Shown: positions 1,122 through 25,727 of the stretch, piece by piece | Layout: every line of letters begins with the position of its first letter | How positions within the stretch are numbered: position 1 is the first letter of the stretch | Source of the DNA: a virus | IMG/VR virus record: IMGVR_UViG_3300032242_001223 | Location: 1 to 27,386 of that record | Length of the DNA stretch: 27,386 bases | Direction: 5' to 3' (one strand) | Notes under the pieces: generated by a model | What the model saw: only the letters and a program-made list of their open reading frames with translations | Database searches by the model: none | Told to the model about the DNA's origin: nothing | Program-made: the position numbers and the translations under genes

Positions 1122-2135
1122 TTATAGGTCGTTATAAATTTGTAGTAATGTGTTCTTATCGAACTGTTCGCTTTCAATGTTGACTAAACTATCCGTAACA
1201 ATTTGATCAACACTTTCAAACATACCATCTGGACTATCCTCAACAGTTCCTTCCAAGTTGACTTTATCTTGGATTAAACTAATTTCTCGAATGTCATACT
1301 CGTTAGTAAATGTTTCTTTGATGTAGTTTGCTTCCTCGAAGCTAATATCAATATCCAAATGAACTTTTAAGTGCATTTTTGACTTCATGATTTCATCTTT
1401 GCGATCAATCATATCACTCAATTTGATAGTTCTATACTTGGGGCAGTTATCCCAATTGATATATTGTGGAGTTCCGCCCCATTCTAATACCATCATGCCA
1501 CGGTCATCATCCCATGTATCAGAGAAATTATGTGGAAATGCATTTCCAATATAGTGTACGCTGCCATTAGTTTGTCGTTTATGGAAGTGTCCACTAAACA
1601 CATACTCCGGACCGTTAAAATCTTCAGCCCTAAGTTCGCCGTGATCTGGCATTTGTACCATTGCATTCATAAAGAACTTAGGTAATTCAAAGTGACCAAA
1701 GACATATTTGCTCTTTAAGTCCTTCATTTGTTTCCATTCGTCACCCACTAACCATGGAACTAATGTTACATCACCAATAGTGGTAACTGTTTCAACGATA
1801 GTAACACCTGGAATATGTCTACCAAATGCACTGCTATGGATATCTCGCTTGTCTTTGTAGAACAAATCGTGATTACCCGGGAACCAATAGAACTGTTCAA
1901 ATGCCGCACCCAGTCTTTCCAAACAGCGCAGGCTAGAATCTAAAGTGAATAAGTTTAGGCTGTTACGATTATGGCTCCAATCGCCAAGGAATATACAAGT
2001 TTCGCATTCCTGTTCTTTAGCTTGTTCAATAAACCAATCTACAAATTCTTCGCAGTCTCGTAAATGTGTTGCTGAATTGGATTTCAGGCCAAAATGTATG
2101 TCTGTAAAACACGCTACCTTTTTAAATAGGCTCAT
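1122..2135 (-). CDS. 47: gp47-like recombination endonuclease subunit (Mre11/SbcD family)
   Basis: Nuclease subunit, partner of gp46 encoded directly downstream. The 337 residues are close to the T4 gp47 length. Metallophosphatase motifs are complete and in order: D12-x-H14, G51-D52, G87-N88-H89-D90, H148 in GHF, and H183/H185 in SGHFH. These are the expected two-metal ligands and the nucleotide-handling histidine, so the enzyme should be active. The C-terminal third (about 225-337) is less conserved and probably contacts the gp46 coiled coil. Translation starts at ATG 2135-2133, with a good AGGAG Shine-Dalgarno at about 2146-2150. It ends in TAA. A sigma70-type promoter lies just upstream, so it can be expressed independently of gp55. 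Confidence 0.95.
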   Translation of the reverse strand: MSLFKKVACFTDIHFGLKSNSATHLRDCEEFVDWFIEQAKEQECETCIFLGDWSHNRNSLNLFTLDSSLRCLERLGAAFEQFYWFPGNHDLFYKDKRDIHSSAFGRHIPGVTIVETVTTIGDVTLVPWLVGDEWKQMKDLKSKYVFGHFELPKFFMNAMVQMPDHGELRAEDFNGPEYVFSGHFHKRQTNGSVHYIGNAFPHNFSDTWDDDRGMMVLEWGGTPQYINWDNCPKYRTIKLSDMIDRKDEIMKSKMHLKVHLDIDISFEEANYIKETFTNEYDIREISLIQDKVNLEGTVEDSPDGMFESVDQIVTDSLVNIESEQFDKNTLLQIYNDL

Positions 2136-2157
2136 TAATTAAAGTTCTCCTACTAAA

Positions 2158-2186
2158 AGTATAGCGTGTATATTACTAAAGGTCAA
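2158..2186 (-). promoter_or_regulatory. Sigma70-type promoter for gp47-gp46
   Basis: On the minus strand TTGACC (2186-2181) is followed after exactly 17 bases by TATACT (2163-2158), five of six matches to each consensus hexamer. Transcription should start near 2151, just before the gp47 Shine-Dalgarno, giving a very short leader. The -35 box overlaps the end of gp55, including a backup TGA at 2185-2183. Expected to be read by host RNA polymerase early in infection (inference). Confidence 0.72.
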
Positions 2187-2188
2187 TA

Positions 2189-2572
2189 CTAAATGTCTTC
2201 GTTTTCTATTTCTTCTTCTTCAGAAACTACATCGCTCTTGGGCATACGCATATTTTTATACAGTTCAGCCTGGCGAGCAATCTCTTCTGCGTACTCTTGA
2301 CTATTTTGTCTTGTTAGACTTGGAGTCAATCCTGCTTCTTCTAGCAAGTCGTCTCGAATGTTTTGGCTCTTTTTCTCGATATTTAAGATTCGAGTAAAGC
2401 TATTAGTCACTGCGGCTGTGTAATAGGCAAATGGATTCTCTGATTTGGATTCATCAAACTGTAATCCAATTTGGCTAAATTGCAAAATGGCCTGACCCTT
2501 CATTTCGTCAATGTAAGTATAGCCACGCCAGTTGCTACGCTGTGCATATCGTTCACTGAGTTTAATAAACAT
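2189..2572 (-). CDS. 55: gp55-like late sigma factor, C-terminal (core-binding) part downstream of an in-frame amber codon
   Basis: Sigma factor that reprograms host RNA polymerase for phage late promoters. This 127-residue stretch, counted from ATG 2572, aligns by eye with the middle of T4 gp55: MFIKLSERYAQR and RGYTY, then the EM of DEMKGQAI, then FDESKSENPFAYYT (T4: NFDETKYKNPHAYIT), then IEKK. That is the sigma2-like core-binding and -10-reading region. The tail is acidic (EEEEIENED), and I do not see the hydrophobic clamp-binding end known from T4. The stop is TAG, followed one codon later by TGA. The frame stays open upstream of this ATG for 29 more codons to the TAG at 2660-2662, and those codons look like gp55 sequence. 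The ATG has only a weak AGG four bases upstream. It may therefore not be a natural start. Confidence 0.85.
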   Translation of the reverse strand: MFIKLSERYAQRSNWRGYTYIDEMKGQAILQFSQIGLQFDESKSENPFAYYTAAVTNSFTRILNIEKKSQNIRDDLLEEAGLTPSLTRQNSQEYAEEIARQAELYKNMRMPKSDVVSEEEEIENEDI

Positions 2573-2659
2573 CTTGCCTAAATTTTCAGTAATCCTGCCG
2601 TGATCCTTACTGAATTTACCATTTACAACTCCACCTTTCCAATGACTTATACCTACGCA

Positions 2660-3103
2660 CTATAGTTCGTCTGCATCATTAAATTTCCAATGTTGGAATG
2701 GAGGGAAGTTAACTTTTTCGTGACTGTCTGCTGTACTTTTAACAGTCTTCTTTCTTCCAGGAGCTAGTGGAATGTGATCAAATGTCATAATGCGTATTAT
2801 GATATCTGTTTTAGCAATAGTTTTATAGTCTGGGGTACATTCTATTAATTTGATTTTCTTATCGCCACCTGCTCTAGCTGCGGCAAATGCTATTAGTCCT
2901 AGTCTTTTTGCTCTTGCTCTTTTAGCATCTGCAATTGTTCGGATATTGACTTTATCTAAACTGGCTAAAATTATGTCATGCTGTTGGTACCCTGGATCAG
3001 CAAAACTTGAAAATGAACATTTACTACGATGTATTTCTGCTAGTAAATCTCTATTGTTTAGGTACTTTACCTTTCTCCCTGTGGGTGCAATGGTTGTTGT
3101 CAT
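2660..3103 (-). CDS. 55: gp55-like late sigma factor, N-terminal part ending at an amber codon
   Basis: The N-terminal part carries KYLNNRDLLAEI, matching the T4 gp55 N-terminal YVNNKELLQAI. A longer middle part than in T4 follows, with Ala/Arg-rich helices and the motifs DHIPLAPGRKK and VNFPPFQHWKF. It stops at TAG 2662-2660, codon 148 from this start. The frame can be extended upstream to a TTG at 3127-3125, but the mapped promoter would start transcription at about 3122, after that TTG. I therefore choose ATG 3103-3101, which has AAGGA about 13 bases upstream. The stretch is in the same frame as the gp55 C-terminal part. I read both as pieces of one gene of about 304 codons, not as an unrelated neighbour. 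Confidence 0.8.
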   Translation of the reverse strand: MTTTIAPTGRKVKYLNNRDLLAEIHRSKCSFSSFADPGYQQHDIILASLDKVNIRTIADAKRARAKRLGLIAFAAARAGGDKKIKLIECTPDYKTIAKTDIIIRIMTFDHIPLAPGRKKTVKSTADSHEKVNFPPFQHWKFNDADEL

Positions 3104-3128
3104 ATTATTATTGTTGTCCTTATCCAAT

Positions 3129-3156
3129 ATTTTAACACGGAAATGGTAGTTGTCAA
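3129..3156 (-). promoter_or_regulatory. Sigma70-type promoter for gp55
   Basis: On the minus strand TTGACA (3156-3151) is followed after 16 bases by TAAAAT (3134-3129): a perfect -35 and a five-of-six -10. The expected start point is near 3122, about 19 bases before ATG 3103. That argues against the upstream TTG at 3127 as start. Likely early host-driven expression of the late sigma factor (inference). Confidence 0.7.
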
Positions 3157-3189
3157 CTGAAATTATTATATTAGCACATTATTTATTAG

Positions 3190-3197
3190 TTAAATAC
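3190..3197 (+). promoter_or_regulatory. T4-type late promoter for the structural cluster
   Basis: TTAAATAC lies 28 bases before ATG 3218. It resembles the T4 late -10 element TATAAATA read by gp55, and it shares TAAATA plus a T/A/G-rich downstream flank with three other sites in this window. It faces away from the gp55 promoter 34 bases to its left. There is no -35 box, as expected for this class. Confidence 0.6.
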
Positions 3198-13745: not shown

Positions 13746-16700
13746 ATGACAACATCAACAATCCAATCAGTCAGCTTACTGCCTGTATACCTACAAACTG
13801 GAAAAAATTCTAAATTCCTATCAAGCACAGTTGATCAGTTAATTCAACCTGCACAATTGGAACGATTAAATGCATATATTGGCTCAACTTCAACACCAAC
13901 ATATTCACCTAGTGATGTTTATGTAATTGAGTCAGACCCATTAAGACAATCTCGTCAATTAGATCCAGCGTTGGTAATAAAGGATATTGAAAGTAATATT
14001 CAAGATGTTATTGCATTGGACGACATTGCTAATGAAATTACATTGAAGGGTGGATTTAGTAATGACTTCGATAGATTATTTGCATCTGATGTTTATTCAT
14101 ATGACCCATATATTGATTGGGACAAAATAACAAATTTCCAGAACTATTATTGGATGCCTTTTGGTGCATCAGTAATTGAAATTGATTCAGATTATTTAAA
14201 CATTGATGCAGAAGTTGTTGGAAAGCCATCTTACACCACAGATGAAGGAGTAACATTGCTTAATGGAATGTTGCTTAGATTCAATGGATTACATGTATCA
14301 GACAAATATCAATATAAAGAATTCTTTGTAGAAGGTACTGGCACCTCTATTACATTGGTGCCTTACGACGAATTAGTTACTCCTGAGTTAGCAGTTAATA
14401 CAAGTTATGCATTGTATGATGATGGATTATTTGACCAAAATAATCTTGATAACAATCAAACTTCCCCAACTATTCCTGAATATGTAACTATTAATCGTGC
14501 CAGTAGAGATAGAAATCCTTGGAGCCGATACAATCGTTGGGTACATTTAGATGTATTAAATGCATCGGCCAAAGCCAACAATGTTACGCTTGATTCAATT
14601 GCTATTTCATCAAAGCGTGCTGTTCGTCCTATTATAGAATTTAAAGCTAATCTAACATTATTCAATTTTGGTAAGATTGCTATTGAACCAATTGACCTTA
14701 TTGATAATGTTACTACTGATGCATTTTTAACAATTGAAAGGGCACCAATTCTTAATGGTGCAACTACTTCAACAATTACTGTTGACGGAATAAATCTAGA
14801 GTACGGCCAAAAGATTGTGTTTGCTGCTGATAATGACTCGTTAGTACGCAACACTATATTTCAAGTTAATATAGTTACTATTAAAGGTGTTGATACTTTA
14901 ACATTATTACCATATGCTCCACATGATCCTTCAGTAGATCAAACATTTGTTGTTACCAAAGGTAACAAATATGTTGGAACTTCATGGAGATATAATGGTT
15001 CAAAATGGGTATTCGCACAACAAAAGACTACATTAAATCAAGCTCCATTATTTGATTTATTTGATGAAAATGGAATAAGTTACAGCAATACTGATTATTA
15101 TTCTAATGATTTTGCAGGTAACAAAATATTTGGTTACGAAATTGGTACGGGTACTAAAGATGCAGTATTGGGCTTTCCATTAAGTTATCTTCAAATTAAT
15201 ACAGTTGGCAGTTATCTTTTTAAAAACTATTTTGCCATTGGATCGATTAATTTATCAAACCCTAACTTAACAATTACTGTTATCCCTACATCTGATACTT
15301 ACTTTGAATATATTCCTAATGATGTTCCTGAGTATAAAAATATATGGAGTAATTCAATACACTATCCTTTGACTATTAATAGTCACGGGTATTATAACTC
15401 TCCATTAGGATTAACTAACAATCCGTTAAATCAAAACATCAGTAAATTTTCATTATCTGATTTAACAGATCATAATAAAACAAAATCTAGATTAATAACA
15501 AATGCAAATCCTATATCTTTTGCATTAATGTTTATTGGTAAAAAAGAACATAATGTTATTGATGCAATTTCTAAAGTTGCAGATCAATATAATCAATTTA
15601 AATTATCCTTAATTACTCGTCTATCTAATGTAACATCTCCGACTAATCCTGCAGATGCATTGGATAGTATTTTAGCAGATATTAATGCTAATCAATCAGT
15701 ATTAAGTTCATATTATCTATCTGATATGATTGGGTATGGTTCTGATTTTGTTTCTAAAACTTATGAAGTTTCTGGTCCACAAAATACAGTATATCCACTT
15801 TCTAATGATTTTGATCTTACATCTATTACTTTGCAAAGTGTATTACTATATTTGAATGGGGTACAACTTGTTCACAATATTGATTATAAATTTGATAAAG
15901 TTAGTAGTTCAGTTATTATCCTAACTAGTTTAGCAGCAAATGATCTATTGACTATTAGGGAATATTTTAATACTTCTGGTAGTTATGTTCCACCAACACC
16001 TAGTAAGTTGGGACTATATCCTGCACATGCTCCTTTAAAATATTTAGATGAAACTTATGTAACTCCTAAAAATGTTATTCAAGGTCATGATGGCAGCATT
16101 ACAGTTGCATTTGATGATTATAGAGACGACATCATATTAGAATTTGAGAAGCGTGTTTATAATAATATCAAAGTACAATATCGTCCTGAGTTAATCGATG
16201 TTAATTCAATTGTACCTGGAGCATTTAGGACTAGCAAATATTCTATAGATGAAATTACATCTATATTAGGTCCAGAATTTATTACTTGGGCTGGTCAATA
16301 TAATATTGATTATATCAATAATCCTACTTTTGATCCATTAAATTATAAAACTTGGAATTATAAAAATAGTTATAATGCAAGTTTAGGTATTTCATTTAAC
16401 GGATCTTGGAGATCAGTATTTGAATATTTTTATGACACTGATCGCCCTGCTACTCATCCTTGGGAAATGTTAGGATTTGATGTACAACCTGATTGGTGGA
16501 CTGATATATATGGACCTGCTCCGTACACATCTGGCAACAGCATCATGTGGTCAGACATTGAAGCAGGCCGAATTGCTGTTACTCCTACTGGACCAACAAT
16601 TAATCCGTTCTATGCTAGACCTGGCTTATCGGCAATTTTACCAGTCGACGAATTTGGTAATACTGTACCAGTTCCAGATCGTTTAGCTGGAACTCCAGAT

Positions 16701-19700
16701 CCTTATGAAATAAGAACATCTTGGGTAATTGGCGATCAAGGGCCTGCTGAAGCTGCTTGGCGTCGTAGCAGCTATTGGCCGTTTGTTGTACAAAAACTAT
16801 TGGCATTGACTCAACCTGCAACATACGCATCATTAGCATATGACCCTGCTAACATTACTAAAAATATTGCAGGACAATGGACATATGGGAAGAATCATAG
16901 CTTCTTGTCCTTGTACAATATCTCAATCCATGGAGAAAATGGATTGCCAACTAGCGGGTATAGTGTGTTTGTAAGTGAAGTTGGACAACAGCGTAGTTTG
17001 AATTATATCACCTCACTTCGTGAAGAACTAACTTACTTAAATTTAAACTTATTCCATAAGGTTGGTGGATTTGTCAATCAAAATACATTACAAGTTATTA
17101 TTGATGCATATGATCCAAATAGTAAAGACCCTGGGTCGATCCTACCTAACGAAAACTATTCAGTAATATTGAATGTCAGTAACCCAGTAGAAAGCATTGG
17201 CATTTCTGGTTTTGTTATTCAGAAAGTAAATGGTGAATTTGTAGTTAGGGGATATGATCGTAAAAATCCTTACTTTAATTATTATAAGTCTATAAGGAAT
17301 ATGTCAACTCCGTCAATTACTTTAGGCGGTGTTGAAGAATCATATCTTGTGTGGTCGGCAAGTGGTACAGCTGGTAATACTGGACTTGGCTCATTTGATA
17401 CTACTACAGCAAGGGCTGCAACTGCTGGAACATTCTACCAAAAAGGTCAGATTGTTTTATACGGAACTAGTTTTTATCGTGTTACAGTAAGTCATCAGTC
17501 TGGTGCTGCTTTTGATGCTACATTATTCCAATTGTTGCCATCCTTGCCATCAGTTGGCGGAGTGACTGTACAAATTGCAAGTTCTTTTGATAAAAAAGTA
17601 TACCAAGTTGCATATGGTACAACATTTAATTCTATTCAAGAAGTATACGATTTAATTATTGGGTACGGTGAATGGCTAACGACCAAAGGATTCTCGTTTA
17701 ATGAATACAGTTCAGAATTAAATGCTGTAATTGATTGGAATTTGTCAGCAAAAGAATTTTTATATTGGACTACGCAAAACTGGGACGAAAACAGTATTAT
17801 TGCCCTAAGTCCATTCTCGGATAAGATAACATACAAACATCCATATGCTGTAGTTGATAATGTATTTGATAATTTTTATGATTATAGCATAGGGAGAGCA
17901 GATGGTACTCCGTTCCCACAAAAGAATTTATTCATAAGTCGTCAAGACGGTGTGTTTACAATTGATGTTGTTAATTCTGCTGATGGAATTTATTTTGCTA
18001 GATTGTATTCTGTGCAAAAAGAACACGCATTAGTTTTTGATAACACTACTATATTTGGTGATATCATATATGACATAGAAACTGGCGAACGCCAGATGCG
18101 TATGAAATTATCTGGATTCCGTACAGCAAACTGGAATGGTGATTACTTTAGTCCTGGATTTATCTATGATACTGCACAGGTATCTAACTGGAAAGCATAC
18201 ACTGCATACACAGCTAGCTCTGTTGTAAAATTTAACGGAAATTACTATTGTGCTATCCATAATATCGATAGTGCTGATGCATTTGATCCTACCAAATGGA
18301 GACTATTGCCTCTTGGTAAACCAACTTCTGGACTATTGCCAAACTTTGATTATAAAATTACACAGTTTGGCGATTTCTACAGTTTAGACATTGACAACTT
18401 TGATGCTGGCCAAGAAGTAATGGCTCAGCATTTAACTGGCTATACTCCTAGATCCTACCTAAATAATATCTTTACAGATCCTATTGCTCAATATAAATTC
18501 TATCAAGGATATATTAGAGAAAAGGGAACCAGTAATGCTATTTCTAAATTAGCTAAGGCTAGTTTACAAACCATTCAAGGACAAGTTGAATTCAAAGAAG
18601 AGTGGGCATTTAGAATTGGTCAATACGGATCATTCACTACCTATGATGAAATTGAATTCCCGTTAATTGAAGGTAATGTAAAAAGTAATCCACATATTAT
18701 TAATTTTGTAAATGCTGTTAATGATGTAGCAAATAATGCAATTACATATGTTACACCATCACAACTTACTATAGGAACAGGCAAACTACCTAAATTTGTC
18801 ACTAACACAACCACTAATGCATTTAAACTATTGCACTCTGGTTATGTTAGACTTGATGATGTACAAGCCACTGCCTATAATGAAAATAGTATTTTAGATA
18901 TTGCTAACATTAATGCTTTACAAGATGGAGATACTATCTGGTTAGGCTTTAAGGAAAACGGCGAGTGGGATGTCTATAGATATTCTGGACAAATTGCTGC
19001 CATTACCGGAGTCTATGTAAGTGATCCATTTAATCAAATTACATTTACTACTAACAACCCTCATGGATCTGTAGTTGGCGATATTATTTCTGTTGTAAAT
19101 TTTAATTCTCAAGTAGATGGAATTTATCGAGTACAGGATGTTCCTTCCCCTACAGAAATTTCTGTAGCAAGTACATTGGCTACAATTACAAATGATCCGT
19201 TAGTTTCTTTAGGATTGTTCTTCAAATTTGTATCTGCAAGATTTAATGACTTTGATACCCTTCCTGCAGACCAAATTTTATACCACTATCCCACACATAC
19301 TTTATTGTGGGCAGATTCTAGAAACGGTACTGATAATAATGGGTGGGCAGTATATAGAAAAGTTATTAATCACGACACCAAATCAATAAACAGTTATAGT
19401 TCTCCGAATGCTCAAAGATTTGGAACTAGTATTAGTAAGAGACGCGGTAACAATGTCTTAGTTGTTGGTGCAACTGATTATTATAAAGGACCGTTGTCGG
19501 GTGCAATTGACCTGTATAAAATTAATAACAATGTTGTAGAATCACAATTAAGTTATTACATGACAACCGGCACATCAGCCACTGAACTTGGTCACTGTGT
19601 AGTATATGATGATATTGAATTTTCAAATACCACATACGGTTTAATATTTGCAGGTGCTCCAGGATATATGGGATCAAGTGGAACTGTAAAAATCAGTAGC

Positions 19701-22700
19701 ATTGATGTTTTGATTTTTGATGAGCAGCCACAAAAATTTATTGATAATCCAGATCCAGCAGTATGTAGTAGATTTGGTTCTAGTATTTTTGTTGAAAGAA
19801 ATGTAACTACTAAAACTGTAATAATTGGTGCACCTGGTACAATTGCTAACAATCAACCTACTCGTGGTAGAGTTTTTGAATATACAGTGACCAGTAATCT
19901 AAATAGTGTTACCGTTGAATACATTCAAGAAATTAATCCTAACTATTTGATATTTGGTGGATATGCAACCGAGTGGGGATACTCTATTGCGGGTGCTGAA
20001 GATGCATCAACAATTGCAATCAGTGCTCCGGGCTTTAGTGAAAATACTGGATGTGTATTTGTTTATAAAGATCGTAATTTTAATGATTCAATAATACTAT
20101 CATTATCTAGTGATTTTGCGAGACACGGTCGATTCGGTCAAGCAATGGCCATAACTCCTGATGGAAAATATTTGGCAATTGGTGCACCTGCATTGTCAAA
20201 CACTGATTTGAGTATTGGTGCTGTTTTTGTCTATAAGTCGTCTGGAACAGAATATGTACTTGATCAAATTATAACTAATCCAGTAACTGGTTCAGGCATG
20301 TTATTTGGTGAAGCTCTTGATTTTAATGAGGATGGTACTGTTTTAGTAATCACAGCCCTTGGTACAAACTCAACAGTTAGAACTACTTTTGATAACGACA
20401 AAGCTACATTTGACCAAAATACAACTCACTTTATTGAGGTTGTAAAGAATTCTGGTTCAGCGTATCTGTACAGTAGACATAATAAACGATTTGTATATTC
20501 AGAAGAATTAAAAGATAACACAGAAGCAAGATTTAGTAATACTGACTACGGCAAGAGTGTGGTAGTTGATAACGATATAATTTTTGTAGGAGCCCCTGCA
20601 TTTAGTGATACACCAGTAGGTGCAGTATTCCAGTTTGATAGAATTAATTCTGCAATTAAAGGTTGGGAAACTTACCGAGCTCAAGATTCATTAGTGGACA
20701 TAGATTTAATTAATCGTGTTGGATTAATTGATACCTATACAGATTCTGTTGTAAACTATTATGACCTAATTGATCCATTAAAGGGTAAAATTGCTGGTAT
20801 TGCAGAACAAGAACTAAGCTATAAATCAGCAAGCGATCCTGCAGTTTACAGTATTGGCTTGGCCAGTGTTAATGTTGATACTAATACCAATTGGCTTGAT
20901 GAGCATGTGGGCGAATTGTGGTGGGATTTGAGTAGTGCCAAGTATGTATGGTATGAACAAAGTGACCTAGCATATCGTAAAAATAATTGGGGTAAATTAT
21001 TTCCAGGTGCAACAATTGATGTTTATGAATGGATTGGATCTAGCCTATTACCTAGCGAATGGAGTGCCCAAGCTGATACAACAGCAGGTATTGCCAAGGG
21101 AATAAGTGGACAACCTAAATTTGTTGATAACAGTATTGTCAGTGTAAAACAAGTTTATGATACTATTACAGATAGTTTTAGTAATGTTTACTTCTACTGG
21201 GTCAAGAACAAAGTTACTGTTCCTGATGTTGCAAATAGAAGAATTAGTAGTTACAGTGTATCGAATATCATTGCTAATCCTACAAGTGCTGGCCTACAAT
21301 ATGTATCTGTTATATCGTCAGATGCATTGTTCCTTGCCAACTTGGGAGCCGAACCAGTAGGTGATCGTATTAGTTTGAATATCAGTTTAGACAAGACAAA
21401 AAATACTGTACCTAAACATACTGAGTGGGCATTAGTACAAGAAGGAAATCCTGAAAGTACCTTGCCAAAATTAATTGAGAAAAAGTTAGTTGATAGTTTA
21501 GTTGGACATGATGTATTGGGTAATAATGTTCCTGATCCAGCATTAACTTCTAGAACTCGATACGGTATTAATATTCGTCCACAGCAGACTCTATTTGTTA
21601 ATAGATTGGAAGCATTACATAATATTGTTGAATTTGCTAACTCTGTATTAATCAAAGAGCAAATAACAGATATTTGCAGTTTTACTAATCTTAACAAACA
21701 AGAAGCCGCACCAACAGAATATATCACAGTTGAAGATAATAGCGAACTATCTTTAATTGACACAGGTTCTACATCAACAGTAACAGTATTATCTGATATT
21801 ACATTTAATGGTGGATGGACTGTATATGAATTTGTTAATAACGAATGGGTTAGATATCGTACACAGGCATATAATACACCATTATATTGGGATTATGTAG
21901 ATTGGCAAAGCCCTTCTTATAATATGCATCGTGATTATTCTTACACAGTTGCTGATACATATCAATTGGCCAGTCTTCAATTGACTCCAGGACAATATGT
22001 TAAAGTATTAAATCACGGTAATGGAAATTATATTATTGTAGAAAAAGTTGATCCAAATGTTGTTGGAAATTTTGGTAATGACTTTAATATTGTCTACAAT
22101 GAAAAAGGTACAATTCAAATATCCAATAGCTTGTGGGATCCTTCTTTTGGATGGGATCAAACATACGGTTATTCTCAAACATTGTTTGACCAAACACCCA
22201 ATATTGAAATTGAATATATCTTATCTGCATTAAAGAATGATATTTTTATAAACAATCTAGCAGTTAACTGGAATTTACTATTCTTTAAAGCAATTAAGTA
22301 TGCTTTTACTGAACAGAAATTCTTAGATTGGGCCTTTAAAACTTCATTTATTAGTGTCACTAATTATGCAGGAAACTTAGGACAACCACCTGTTTATAAA
22401 CTACAGGATAGTGCATACTATCAAAGTTATATTGAAGAAGTTAAACCGTACCATACTCAGATTAGAGTTTTTAATACTAACTTTGAATCTACGGAAACTA
22501 GCCATACTTCAATATCAGATTTTGATTTCCCAGCATATTTTAATACATCAACTGGAAAATTTACTGCGGCTACAGTATCTGCCAGTAGTATTATAATTCC
22601 TCCAGTTAGATCAATTACATCTAGAATAAAATATGATAGAATTACTGCATTAGATCAAATTGGTGATTTACCAGTTACTGATACATTTTATGGAGATGGT

Positions 22701-25700
22701 GTAAACACCACATTTATATTAAGTTGGTTACCACAAATTTCTAACAATAGTATCACTGTAAGAGTTGCTAATGAATATATTCCTTCAATGGGATATGATA
22801 TCAGTTTCTATTCAGCATCACATAATGACTATTCTAAGAAGTATGCAGCTATTATATTGACAAATGTAATCCCTCAAGCAAATGATGTTATTATAATATC
22901 ATACAAAAAGAGTGTTGAATTGATGTCGGCTTCTGAGCGTATTATAAATTATTATACGCCTGGTCCAGGAATGCCTGGTCCAGATTTAAGCCAAGTAATG
23001 AGTGGTATAGTATATCCTGGAGCATTAGTTGGCGGACAATATGAAGGATTGGGATTTGCTAATGCATATGCTGGCGGGGTACCATCCACTTATATTAATG
23101 ATACATCAAGCTATGCAACTTTTGTACACGGTCAAAATATTGGTGCAACTGGAACAAATGCTGTTGTTATTGACGGTGAATCAAGTTTCTTAACTCCTAC
23201 TTCTGGATATGGTCCTGAAGAGTTAATTCCGGGTACAGTAGTTGATTCATTAGGTATTAGTGTATACACTAAATCTGCAATTGGGGCACCAATTATTCAA
23301 ACACAAGTTGTTGGTGTACAGTCAGGTACAGCATTTGTTCATGCATTGACTGATATGCCAACTACTAAAGATAGTATAACTGTTGTATTTGATAATATAG
23401 AGTATTCATATATTCCTTCTGTTAATTTTACAACTAGTACACAATTTACCATCGACTGGGTCCACACTAATTTAATATTGCCACCGCAACCATATTCTGG
23501 ATTACTTGCTTATACTGTAGTTGGTGTTGGAAGTAACTCTACATCTACATTAGGAATTATTGATAAACAATCTGTCCAATCTAATTATTCTCCAGAAACA
23601 TATGTATTGAGTGTGGCGGGTGCAACTACTATAAAAGGTGCATATGTAACAATTGACGGGTCACCGATAACATCTACTCCTAGTAGCATTGACCCTTGGT
23701 TTGAATTAAATGTTGTTTATGGAAGCCCCGGGTCTGCTTATGTTCGCAATTTATCAACTGGCACTAATTCACTAGTGCAAGCATGGTTCTTTGATACACC
23801 AACAGACAGTGCAAACTTCAATAAGATATTATCTCAGACAGTTTCTGTGCCTAGTCCAGTTACTACAATTCCATTGACTTATCCACCATTTGGTGCAGGT
23901 CCAGTAAGTGCTCAAACTATTGTAGAAATGACTGACAGGTTTGCTGTCACTAGAAGATTGTTACCGCCTGATATGACATATCATACTGTTACTGACAGCG
24001 GCGACATAACTTATAATATTAGAGTTGCTTCTACTACTTCCGTTACATTAAGTTCAAGTAATGTTATTGTTTACAAGAATAATGTTGCGCTTGATCCAGC
24101 TGCAATTATTATAAATTCGCCAAGCCGTACTGTTACAATTGATACTGGTTTGGTTACATTAGTTGCAGGTGATTTAATTTCTATTGAAACATTTAATCCT
24201 TCAATAATTGATGGAGTACTATCTCCACCAGCAGGCACTTATACATACGATTATAGAATACTCGGATCGAATTTAATATTATCACCTAAAATAATACCTT
24301 TCTTAGAAAATGCATCTTTAAAGATTACTACATATTCTAATCAAGATAGTATGCAGATTGAGACAACTAGATTTGTCGGTAATCCAAGACGAGTATTTAA
24401 ATTAGATCGAGTTGTTGTAAACAGTAATTATGTATGGGTACAAATTGAAAGACCATCTGGCGACCTTGCTTTAATAAACGGTATTGATTATACAGTGTTA
24501 GCAGATCGTTTGACAATTATGATCAATGACAAATTTGCGTTAACCACTGATGATAATGTTGTTATTATGAGTTTCAGTAGCCAAACAATTGCAAATACAA
24601 TTATTGGTTATAAAATATTCAACGACATATTGGGTAAAACTTCGTTCACTAGAATAAGTGATCGTAATACAACATATTTGACTCAACCGTTAGCTGCTGC
24701 TGATACTGAAATACATGTTGCCGATGCAACAGTACTATCAACTCCAATTGTATCTGAAAATCGTCCTGGGGTGATTGTAATTGCATCTGAACGCATTGAA
24801 TTCTTTAATATCAACGGAAATGTGTTGACTCAAGTATTGCGTGGTACTGGCGGAACAAGTCCTATTGGTACAGTAGGTGTTGGTGTTGAAGTAATTGATC
24901 AAGGTTTTGATCAAATATTACCACACACTATTTTCACTCCCTATACTGAAACAGTATTGGTTCAGAATACATTTACCAATACATTGACTAATATGTATAC
25001 TATTAGTACTGTCACTCAGCAATTAATTACATATCCAAACACTTCTACATTGGTACAATATGACGGTATTAATTTAGGATTTACACAAAAGCCTGTTCCT
25101 TATGATACCTATTATAACAATCATTTACCAACAGTAAATGCAATTGACATGGTTGCAGTATATTACGGCGGCCGTCCATTAAGTAAATTTGGCACTTATC
25201 GTCATGATACAAGTGTGGCATATGATAGCATTTCTACTTCTTCAATTGTGGGTACTGTATCTACAGTAAAAGAGCTAACAACTGCAACATATTTCCCAGG
25301 ACAAGCATATCTTGTTACATCAACTAATCAAGTATGGGTCTGTACAGAAAACCAATTTGTTGATCCAGATATTCCGTATTTTGTTGATTCTGGATTAAGA
25401 TATGTTCCGCCAGAATTTAGTATTATAACTGCAACACAGACCGTAGTATTAAATCCTGATGTTGTTTCTATAGGTGAAAATATAATGTTAACCTTTGTTA
25501 AGAAACAGTTTGCAATAGACACAAGCAACAGTTGGAATGATATTAACCCTAATAATAGTGAATTATCTGAATCTTTATTATATAGCACAAGTACAGTGGC
25601 AACTTTCTTAAAGAATTCTCCAGCTACTTTACCTCAGCAACGATATTATGGAAACGATCCTATAGCATCAAATGGTGGTGGAACTATATTTGTTGATCAC

Positions 25701-25727
25701 AATGGGTCACCAATTCAAGGATATTAA
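13746..25727 (+). CDS. Giant baseplate/tail structural protein, 3993 residues, in the gp7 position
   Basis: One uninterrupted frame covering 44% of the window, roughly 440 kDa. It probably forms the outer wedge and arms of the baseplate. The gp7 role is inferred from order alone (6, then this gene, then a small protein and a fibre), and T4 gp7 has only 1032 residues. The N-terminus (1-150: SVSLLPVYLQTGKNSKFL, then DIDWD-like and NYYWMPFG segments) resembles the start of very large cyanophage structural proteins. Visible modules: two short Trp/Tyr-rich segments (about 1226-1275 and 1479-1522) like carbohydrate-binding module 5/12; seven FG-GAP repeats (1886-2298); a WWDLSSAKYVWYEQ block just after them; an EEVKPYHTQIRVF block near 2898; and ASERIEFFNINGNVL near 3680. 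No protease or enzyme motif was seen. ATG 13746 has only a weak purine stretch and probably depends on coupling with gp6. Confidence 0.92.
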   Translation: MTTSTIQSVSLLPVYLQTGKNSKFLSSTVDQLIQPAQLERLNAYIGSTSTPTYSPSDVYVIESDPLRQSRQLDPALVIKDIESNIQDVIALDDIANEITLKGGFSNDFDRLFASDVYSYDPYIDWDKITNFQNYYWMPFGASVIEIDSDYLNIDAEVVGKPSYTTDEGVTLLNGMLLRFNGLHVSDKYQYKEFFVEGTGTSITLVPYDELVTPELAVNTSYALYDDGLFDQNNLDNNQTSPTIPEYVTINRASRDRNPWSRYNRWVHLDVLNASAKANNVTLDSIAISSKRAVRPIIEFKANLTLFNFGKIAIEPIDLIDNVTTDAFLTIERAPILNGATTSTITVDGINLEYGQKIVFAADNDSLVRNTIFQVNIVTIKGVDTLTLLPYAPHDPSVDQTFVVTKGNKYVGTSWRYNGSKWVFAQQKTTLNQAPLFDLFDENGISYSNTDYYSNDFAGNKIFGYEIGTGTKDAVLGFPLSYLQINTVGSYLFKNYFAIGSINLSNPNLTITVIPTSDTYFEYIPNDVPEYKNIWSNSIHYPLTINSHGYYNSPLGLTNNPLNQNISKFSLSDLTDHNKTKSRLITNANPISFALMFIGKKEHNVIDAISKVADQYNQFKLSLITRLSNVTSPTNPADALDSILADINANQSVLSSYYLSDMIGYGSDFVSKTYEVSGPQNTVYPLSNDFDLTSITLQSVLLYLNGVQLVHNIDYKFDKVSSSVIILTSLAANDLLTIREYFNTSGSYVPPTPSKLGLYPAHAPLKYLDETYVTPKNVIQGHDGSITVAFDDYRDDIILEFEKRVYNNIKVQYRPELIDVNSIVPGAFRTSKYSIDEITSILGPEFITWAGQYNIDYINNPTFDPLNYKTWNYKNSYNASLGISFNGSWRSVFEYFYDTDRPATHPWEMLGFDVQPDWWTDIYGPAPYTSGNSIMWSDIEAGRIAVTPTGPTINPFYARPGLSAILPVDEFGNTVPVPDRLAGTPDPYEIRTSWVIGDQGPAEAAWRRSSYWPFVVQKLLALTQPATYASLAYDPANITKNIAGQWTYGKNHSFLSLYNISIHGENGLPTSGYSVFVSEVGQQRSLNYITSLREELTYLNLNLFHKVGGFVNQNTLQVIIDAYDPNSKDPGSILPNENYSVILNVSNPVESIGISGFVIQKVNGEFVVRGYDRKNPYFNYYKSIRNMSTPSITLGGVEESYLVWSASGTAGNTGLGSFDTTTARAATAGTFYQKGQIVLYGTSFYRVTVSHQSGAAFDATLFQLLPSLPSVGGVTVQIASSFDKKVYQVAYGTTFNSIQEVYDLIIGYGEWLTTKGFSFNEYSSELNAVIDWNLSAKEFLYWTTQNWDENSIIALSPFSDKITYKHPYAVVDNVFDNFYDYSIGRADGTPFPQKNLFISRQDGVFTIDVVNSADGIYFARLYSVQKEHALVFDNTTIFGDIIYDIETGERQMRMKLSGFRTANWNGDYFSPGFIYDTAQVSNWKAYTAYTASSVVKFNGNYYCAIHNIDSADAFDPTKWRLLPLGKPTSGLLPNFDYKITQFGDFYSLDIDNFDAGQEVMAQHLTGYTPRSYLNNIFTDPIAQYKFYQGYIREKGTSNAISKLAKASLQTIQGQVEFKEEWAFRIGQYGSFTTYDEIEFPLIEGNVKSNPHIINFVNAVNDVANNAITYVTPSQLTIGTGKLPKFVTNTTTNAFKLLHSGYVRLDDVQATAYNENSILDIANINALQDGDTIWLGFKENGEWDVYRYSGQIAAITGVYVSDPFNQITFTTNNPHGSVVGDIISVVNFNSQVDGIYRVQDVPSPTEISVASTLATITNDPLVSLGLFFKFVSARFNDFDTLPADQILYHYPTHTLLWADSRNGTDNNGWAVYRKVINHDTKSINSYSSPNAQRFGTSISKRRGNNVLVVGATDYYKGPLSGAIDLYKINNNVVESQLSYYMTTGTSATELGHCVVYDDIEFSNTTYGLIFAGAPGYMGSSGTVKISSIDVLIFDEQPQKFIDNPDPAVCSRFGSSIFVERNVTTKTVIIGAPGTIANNQPTRGRVFEYTVTSNLNSVTVEYIQEINPNYLIFGGYATEWGYSIAGAEDASTIAISAPGFSENTGCVFVYKDRNFNDSIILSLSSDFARHGRFGQAMAITPDGKYLAIGAPALSNTDLSIGAVFVYKSSGTEYVLDQIITNPVTGSGMLFGEALDFNEDGTVLVITALGTNSTVRTTFDNDKATFDQNTTHFIEVVKNSGSAYLYSRHNKRFVYSEELKDNTEARFSNTDYGKSVVVDNDIIFVGAPAFSDTPVGAVFQFDRINSAIKGWETYRAQDSLVDIDLINRVGLIDTYTDSVVNYYDLIDPLKGKIAGIAEQELSYKSASDPAVYSIGLASVNVDTNTNWLDEHVGELWWDLSSAKYVWYEQSDLAYRKNNWGKLFPGATIDVYEWIGSSLLPSEWSAQADTTAGIAKGISGQPKFVDNSIVSVKQVYDTITDSFSNVYFYWVKNKVTVPDVANRRISSYSVSNIIANPTSAGLQYVSVISSDALFLANLGAEPVGDRISLNISLDKTKNTVPKHTEWALVQEGNPESTLPKLIEKKLVDSLVGHDVLGNNVPDPALTSRTRYGINIRPQQTLFVNRLEALHNIVEFANSVLIKEQITDICSFTNLNKQEAAPTEYITVEDNSELSLIDTGSTSTVTVLSDITFNGGWTVYEFVNNEWVRYRTQAYNTPLYWDYVDWQSPSYNMHRDYSYTVADTYQLASLQLTPGQYVKVLNHGNGNYIIVEKVDPNVVGNFGNDFNIVYNEKGTIQISNSLWDPSFGWDQTYGYSQTLFDQTPNIEIEYILSALKNDIFINNLAVNWNLLFFKAIKYAFTEQKFLDWAFKTSFISVTNYAGNLGQPPVYKLQDSAYYQSYIEEVKPYHTQIRVFNTNFESTETSHTSISDFDFPAYFNTSTGKFTAATVSASSIIIPPVRSITSRIKYDRITALDQIGDLPVTDTFYGDGVNTTFILSWLPQISNNSITVRVANEYIPSMGYDISFYSASHNDYSKKYAAIILTNVIPQANDVIIISYKKSVELMSASERIINYYTPGPGMPGPDLSQVMSGIVYPGALVGGQYEGLGFANAYAGGVPSTYINDTSSYATFVHGQNIGATGTNAVVIDGESSFLTPTSGYGPEELIPGTVVDSLGISVYTKSAIGAPIIQTQVVGVQSGTAFVHALTDMPTTKDSITVVFDNIEYSYIPSVNFTTSTQFTIDWVHTNLILPPQPYSGLLAYTVVGVGSNSTSTLGIIDKQSVQSNYSPETYVLSVAGATTIKGAYVTIDGSPITSTPSSIDPWFELNVVYGSPGSAYVRNLSTGTNSLVQAWFFDTPTDSANFNKILSQTVSVPSPVTTIPLTYPPFGAGPVSAQTIVEMTDRFAVTRRLLPPDMTYHTVTDSGDITYNIRVASTTSVTLSSSNVIVYKNNVALDPAAIIINSPSRTVTIDTGLVTLVAGDLISIETFNPSIIDGVLSPPAGTYTYDYRILGSNLILSPKIIPFLENASLKITTYSNQDSMQIETTRFVGNPRRVFKLDRVVVNSNYVWVQIERPSGDLALINGIDYTVLADRLTIMINDKFALTTDDNVVIMSFSSQTIANTIIGYKIFNDILGKTSFTRISDRNTTYLTQPLAAADTEIHVADATVLSTPIVSENRPGVIVIASERIEFFNINGNVLTQVLRGTGGTSPIGTVGVGVEVIDQGFDQILPHTIFTPYTETVLVQNTFTNTLTNMYTISTVTQQLITYPNTSTLVQYDGINLGFTQKPVPYDTYYNNHLPTVNAIDMVAVYYGGRPLSKFGTYRHDTSVAYDSISTSSIVGTVSTVKELTTATYFPGQAYLVTSTNQVWVCTENQFVDPDIPYFVDSGLRYVPPEFSIITATQTVVLNPDVVSIGENIMLTFVKKQFAIDTSNSWNDINPNNSELSESLLYSTSTVATFLKNSPATLPQQRYYGNDPIASNGGGTIFVDHNGSPIQGY
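19401..20640 (+). repeat. Seven FG-GAP-type repeats forming a predicted beta-propeller inside the giant protein
   Basis: Repeats begin at about residues 1886, 1941, 2006, 2073, 2126, 2182 and 2265. Each has an FG or YG turn, a polar loop, a strand ending in GAP or a variant (VVGATD, FAGAPG, IIGAPG, AISAPG, AIGAPA, VITALG, FVGAPA), and a G-x-V-x-x-Y/F close (for example GAVFVYKS). Seven units is the number needed for a complete integrin-alpha-like propeller. The calcium-loop DxDxDG motif is degenerate (TPDGK, NEDGT). Confidence 0.8.

Follow-up and report, generated by a model that had tools for sequence, protein, structure and literature searches.

An amber codon private to one viral record interrupts the late sigma factor gene gp55 of a T4-like jumbo phage

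In bacteriophage T4, gp55 is the sigma factor for late transcription, and without gene 55 function the late genes are not transcribed (PMC2988020). T4 gp55 is a protein of 185 aa and lacks a domain of about 120 aa that is inserted in the gp55 considered here. The same long gp55 gene is present in phages of the profile family phrog_12791, namely PA5oct (Pseudomonas), 121Q (Escherichia), GAP32 (Cronobacter), and Atu_ph07 (Agrobacterium). In other phages, stop-codon recoding has been proposed as a timer of lytic genes (PMC11210395, PMC10879173), and a suppressor tRNA with the CUA anticodon is found in about half of the TAG-recoded phages (PMC11210395). Here, we describe a gp55 gene interrupted by a single TAG in IMG/VR record IMGVR_UViG_3300032242_001223. 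The whole stretch of DNA that was analysed (27,386 nt) is referred to as the window.

In the group of T4-like jumbo phages, gp55 is one normal gene. In this record, it is encoded on the minus strand, and the amber TAG at 2660-2662 (codon 148 if the ATG at 3101-3103 is taken as the first) is the sole stop between that ATG and the terminal TAG at 2189-2191. The flanking open reading frames, from 3127 (or ATG 3103) to 2660 and from ATG 2572 to 2189, lie in one frame. Between the amber and the next in-frame ATG (2570-2572), which encodes the conserved Met of GKM[FY]IKL and is the only likely restart, there are 29 open codons (87 bases). In a profile search, both sides matched phrog_12791 (286 positions, 'sigma factor for late transcription') as consecutive parts, in frame: the N-terminal part (2663-3103, 147 codons) matched positions 5-138 (E 1.3e-21), and the C-terminal part (2189-2659) matched positions 143-275 (E 4.4e-52) as well as positions 22-156 of phrog_234. 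The near-whole profile is therefore matched and the sigma-2 core is present, and it is the single uninterrupted frame that is lost to the TAG. The original prediction that gp55 is broken by one in-frame amber is thus borne out by the shared frame and the consecutive matches, and the 29 codons past the TAG (CVGISHWKGG..GKFSKDHGRITENLGK), which had been read as gp55-like, can indeed be aligned with intact relatives. The assignment of the N-terminal and core-binding motifs to one protein also stands, with the addition that the N-terminal motif and the sigma-2 core lie on either side of a domain specific to this family (about 120 aa) and that the amber falls inside this domain. The N-terminal part comprises the YLNNRDLLAEI motif and most of this inserted domain, and the C-terminal part comprises the remainder of the second hairpin strand, the sigma-2 core (FDESKSENPFAYYT), and an acidic tail. 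The amber is also contained in a perfect 8-base palindrome, ACTATAGT, at 2659-2666, which is probably due to chance.

AlphaFold2 was run on the read-through gp55 together with 29 relatives (mean pLDDT 84.7). In the predicted structure, the amber corresponds to residue 148, which lies in hairpin strand 147-153, in blocks with pLDDT above 90; the sigma-2 helices start at residue 173, and the first of them spans residues 173-187. The TAG is therefore predicted to cut a beta-hairpin, not a linker, and truncation at this point is predicted to leave the inserted domain with a strand missing.

As in PA5oct, sbcD and sbcC follow gp55 and divergent virion genes, here a structural (baseplate) operon, lie on its other side. 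The region upstream of gp55, which is conserved in relatives, contains a sigma-70-like promoter, TTGACA-16-TAAAAT (3129-3156, minus strand). The sigma-70-like promoter of sbcD, TTGACC-17-TATACT (2158-2186, minus strand), overlaps the end of gp55 and is conserved in the closest relatives; in several relatives, the TGA stop of gp55 forms part of the -35 box of this promoter. The late promoters had been described as intact, and this holds for one site: upstream of the structural operon, a GTTAAATA resembling a late promoter (3189-3196, plus strand) is conserved in relatives. The core of the T4 late promoter is TATAAATA; it is absent from the whole window (0 vs. 5.3 expected), and the late promoter core of the group may be TTAAATA. 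The window also contains one open frame of 3,993 codons (13746-25727), which is unusually long for a phage gene.

A scan of viral contigs yielded the 80 nearest relatives, with 57 distinct gp55 sequences that are 79-91% identical. A sense codon occupies the amber site in all 80, and the residues encoded there by the 57 distinct sequences are Ile (31), Val (18), Glu (4), Thr (2), Met (1), and Phe (1). The comparison of this codon in close relatives, which had been proposed as a check, thus shows that the TAG is private to the record. No internal stop was found among 48 more distant gp55 genes recovered in a second scan with PA5oct gp55 as the query, nor in the gp55 of ten long contigs of relatives scanned whole, and in cultured jumbo phages gp55 is one open stretch across the amber site. 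In 647 kb of homologous coding DNA from 129 records, no in-frame stop other than the gp55 TAG is flanked on both sides by well-aligned sequence; chance is therefore excluded, and the amber is a real oddity. An apparent internal TAG in a structural gene of relative L078 was not counted, as conservation is poor around it and the alignment edge is near. Exact-pattern scans of viral contigs returned no near-identical record of the same phage, their one match being a distant relative (L082) with a Val codon at the site, and a scan of genome contigs returned no relative. Two clearly separate genes in relatives would have contradicted the notion of a single broken gene; instead, the relatives have one uninterrupted gene. 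As no relative carries either the TAG or a split gene, a conserved recoding site and a split gp55 are both absent from the group.

The more distant gp55 genes were noteworthy in another respect. Five of the 48 carry an in-frame insertion that resembles an intein and is about 335 aa long (L143, 2056-3069; L144, L146, and L147, about 2056-3063; L148, about 2146-3159), situated between NWRGY and TYLDEM of gp55. The insert has the form CVDxxTEALTxRGW ... YLTGN with Thr at +1. Its profile matches are weak, with LAGLIDADG_3 in L144 and an intein-containing model in L143 and L148. In L149, only the C-terminal side is present. A literature search on inteins and gp55 returned no paper clearly reporting an insertion of this kind.

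The closest relatives share approx. 77% DNA identity with the window, with synonymous sites saturated, and the terminal branch of the window (0.21 substitutions per site) equals the tree median. Amino-acid divergence past the TAG is 0.054, compared with a median of 0.066 in intact relatives (rank 42 of 56). The 29 codons between the TAG and the next ATG contain two private residues, whereas approx. 12 residue differences would be expected if these codons had been unselected along the whole 0.21 branch. Given this lack of decay, the stop is young, or an error, or translated through, and the part past the TAG appears to have been translated until very recently, or to be translated still. Relaxed selection between the TAG and the next ATG was considered and rejected, as the ratio was not distinct (rank 6 of 56). 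The private changes in gp55 are E46G, stop156, K160I, V168, and L217F (P0001 numbering, with a start 8 codons ahead of the ATG), of which K160I alters a nearly invariant Lys four codons past the stop. Three of the five lie within 13 codons around the stop; such clustering could arise from a local patch of errors or from a short relaxation, the numbers being too small to decide. K160I also creates a TATAAGT, for which no promoter function is claimed, as such sites are only mildly in excess of chance (14 vs. 8.7 expected). It should be noted that TAG is two or three base changes away from the Ile and Val codons (ATN, GTN) of nearly all relatives and thus does not derive from one wrong base on a typical codon; only the codon of L045 (GAG) is one step away.

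The TAG, which is private to this record, is probably a very young or spurious nonsense codon for which there is no dedicated readthrough. It may have entered the metagenome consensus through an error or a mixed-variant path, or it may belong to a real but defective variant, either a dead end or dependent on a helper; from the privacy of the codon and the intact sequence beyond it, we infer an origin that is recent or erroneous and an absence of function. Ribosomes would then stop at codon 148, and the product would end inside the inserted domain, before the sigma-2 core, so that this copy would fail to turn on the late genes. As T4 late transcription needs gene 55 (PMC2988020), a fixed and unsuppressed null should not persist in a lytic phage. 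Against this reading, none of the other complete genes in the window is disrupted, so the record is not generally error-ridden; the distance of TAG from the usual codons of relatives and the variability of the site, where a translated TAG would be tolerated, also count against it. Among the options originally offered, a substitution in one variant and an assembly error are the best readings. Regulated readthrough and a functional split sigma fare badly, given a TAG found in no relative, a poor context with no accompanying structure, a cut within a hairpin, and no suppressor tRNA seen. More generally, stops in essential genes of single metagenome contigs call for caution and need read support.

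It is also conceivable, albeit unlikely, that the amber is real and translated, with a phage or host suppressor tRNA filling a tolerant site and yielding full-length gp55, perhaps at a reduced level or in a timed manner. The absence of decay past the TAG would be explained, and the site is highly variable (one of the 15 gp55 columns, out of 281, with six or more residues), so most inserted residues should be tolerable there. Suppression would also cost little because the group very seldom uses TAG as a stop (2 of 315 long open frames in relatives) and TAA terminates the other complete genes in the window. Even a suppressed terminal TAG of gp55 would add only two residues, as a TGA lies two codons on (2183-2185, minus strand), at which gp55 ends in relatives L007, L012, and L019. 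One relative is tRNA-rich: a family search counted 16 tRNA matches in the L063 contig (131,512 bases), in a cluster at 118-131 kb; most contigs of other relatives have none. However, the window contains no tRNA genes, and no CUA anticodon was found among the tRNAs of the long contigs of 15 relatives, two of which carry tRNAs. The base directly after the amber (+4) is U, which in bacteria constitutes a strong termination context and is poor for suppression. Moreover, no second in-frame TAG occurs in approx. 9,000 codons, and K160I would be left unexplained. TAG also acts as a stop in the group, since genes of relatives sometimes end in it and TAA or TGA replace the terminal TAG of gp55. For this reason, the terminal TAG was rejected as a second sense TAG: relatives of the L010, L016, and L017 types have TAA or TGA there, and an ordinary stop is the simpler interpretation. 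Likewise, the TAA-only stops of the other window genes were rejected as a sign of a code change because orthologues in relatives mostly end in TAA too (59 of 64 readable ends for the 98-aa gene, with four TAG, and 66 of 66 for the 275-aa gene); the stops of sbcD are mixed. The stricter form of this explanation, in which the amber is fixed and gp55, and with it the entire late programme, relies on suppression of this one TAG by a tRNA of the phage or its host under an otherwise standard code, is quite improbable. Were the codon indeed fixed and translated, the late programme would be gated via one suppressible stop in a sigma factor, and recoding of the kind proposed for lytic timing would here take a simple form.

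It is very improbable that a second late sigma factor encoded elsewhere in the genome makes gp55 dispensable and that this copy is a young pseudogene. Only 27 kb of this genome are covered and the private changes cluster near the TAG, both of which would suit such a scenario, but the ten contigs of relatives, 94-385 kb long, contain exactly one gp55 each.

Slightly harder still to credit is a split sigma factor, in which the 147-aa N-terminal fragment and a 127-aa product restarted at ATG 2572 would both be made and act jointly or each on its own, with the restart product serving as a short sigma-2 protein of the T4 kind. An in-frame ATG does occur 87 bases past the TAG, and the gp55 proteins of T4 and cyanophages, which have no inserted domain, match only the C-terminal part of this gp55. 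The predicted structure argues against this, as the hairpin is cut and a restart at Met 178 would begin within the first sigma-2 helix, without the N-terminal motif. Codons 149-177 would be lost; these include what is left of the broken hairpin strand and the beginning of that helix. Furthermore, only a weak Shine-Dalgarno-like AGG precedes the restart ATG, the codons between the TAG and this ATG are still conserved, and none of the relatives examined is split.

The least credible reading, that programmed readthrough or suppression of a regulated TAG sets the level of gp55 and thereby gates the late programme, appeals to gp55 as the gateway to late genes (PMC2988020) and to the lytic-timing recoding proposed elsewhere (PMC11210395, PMC10879173), but the TAG is conserved in no relative, the RNA 3' of it folds no better than shuffles (z = 0.33), the +4 base is unfavourable, and in-frame TAGs are lacking in the late structural genes; neither the conserved stop nor the favourable context or 3' structure typical of programmed readthrough is present.

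Among known systems, this gp55 is 40-46% identical over 81-91% of its length to those of the jumbo T4-like isolates, in which the gene is one uninterrupted frame, whereas in this record it is interrupted by the TAG. T4 gp55 (PDB 7d7c, chain F) is the best fold match in the PDB (rmsd 1.7 over 89 columns, 31% identity), and its sigma-2 core also matches by sequence (E 7.9e-7). Stop-codon-recoded phages (code 15, TAG = Gln) share with this record an in-frame TAG in an essential phage gene. However, in recoded phages in-frame TAGs are numerous and coding density rises by 5-10%, the gain used to call such phages (PMC10879173), whereas here there is one TAG, and fusion of gp55 across it raises coding density from 98.6% to 98.9% (+0.3%); the many TAGs and clear density rise that mark a TAG-recoded phage are thus not seen. 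Defective mutants of T4 gene 55 likewise lose the late sigma factor, but these are laboratory mutants, whereas the interrupted gene described here comes from a metagenome record.
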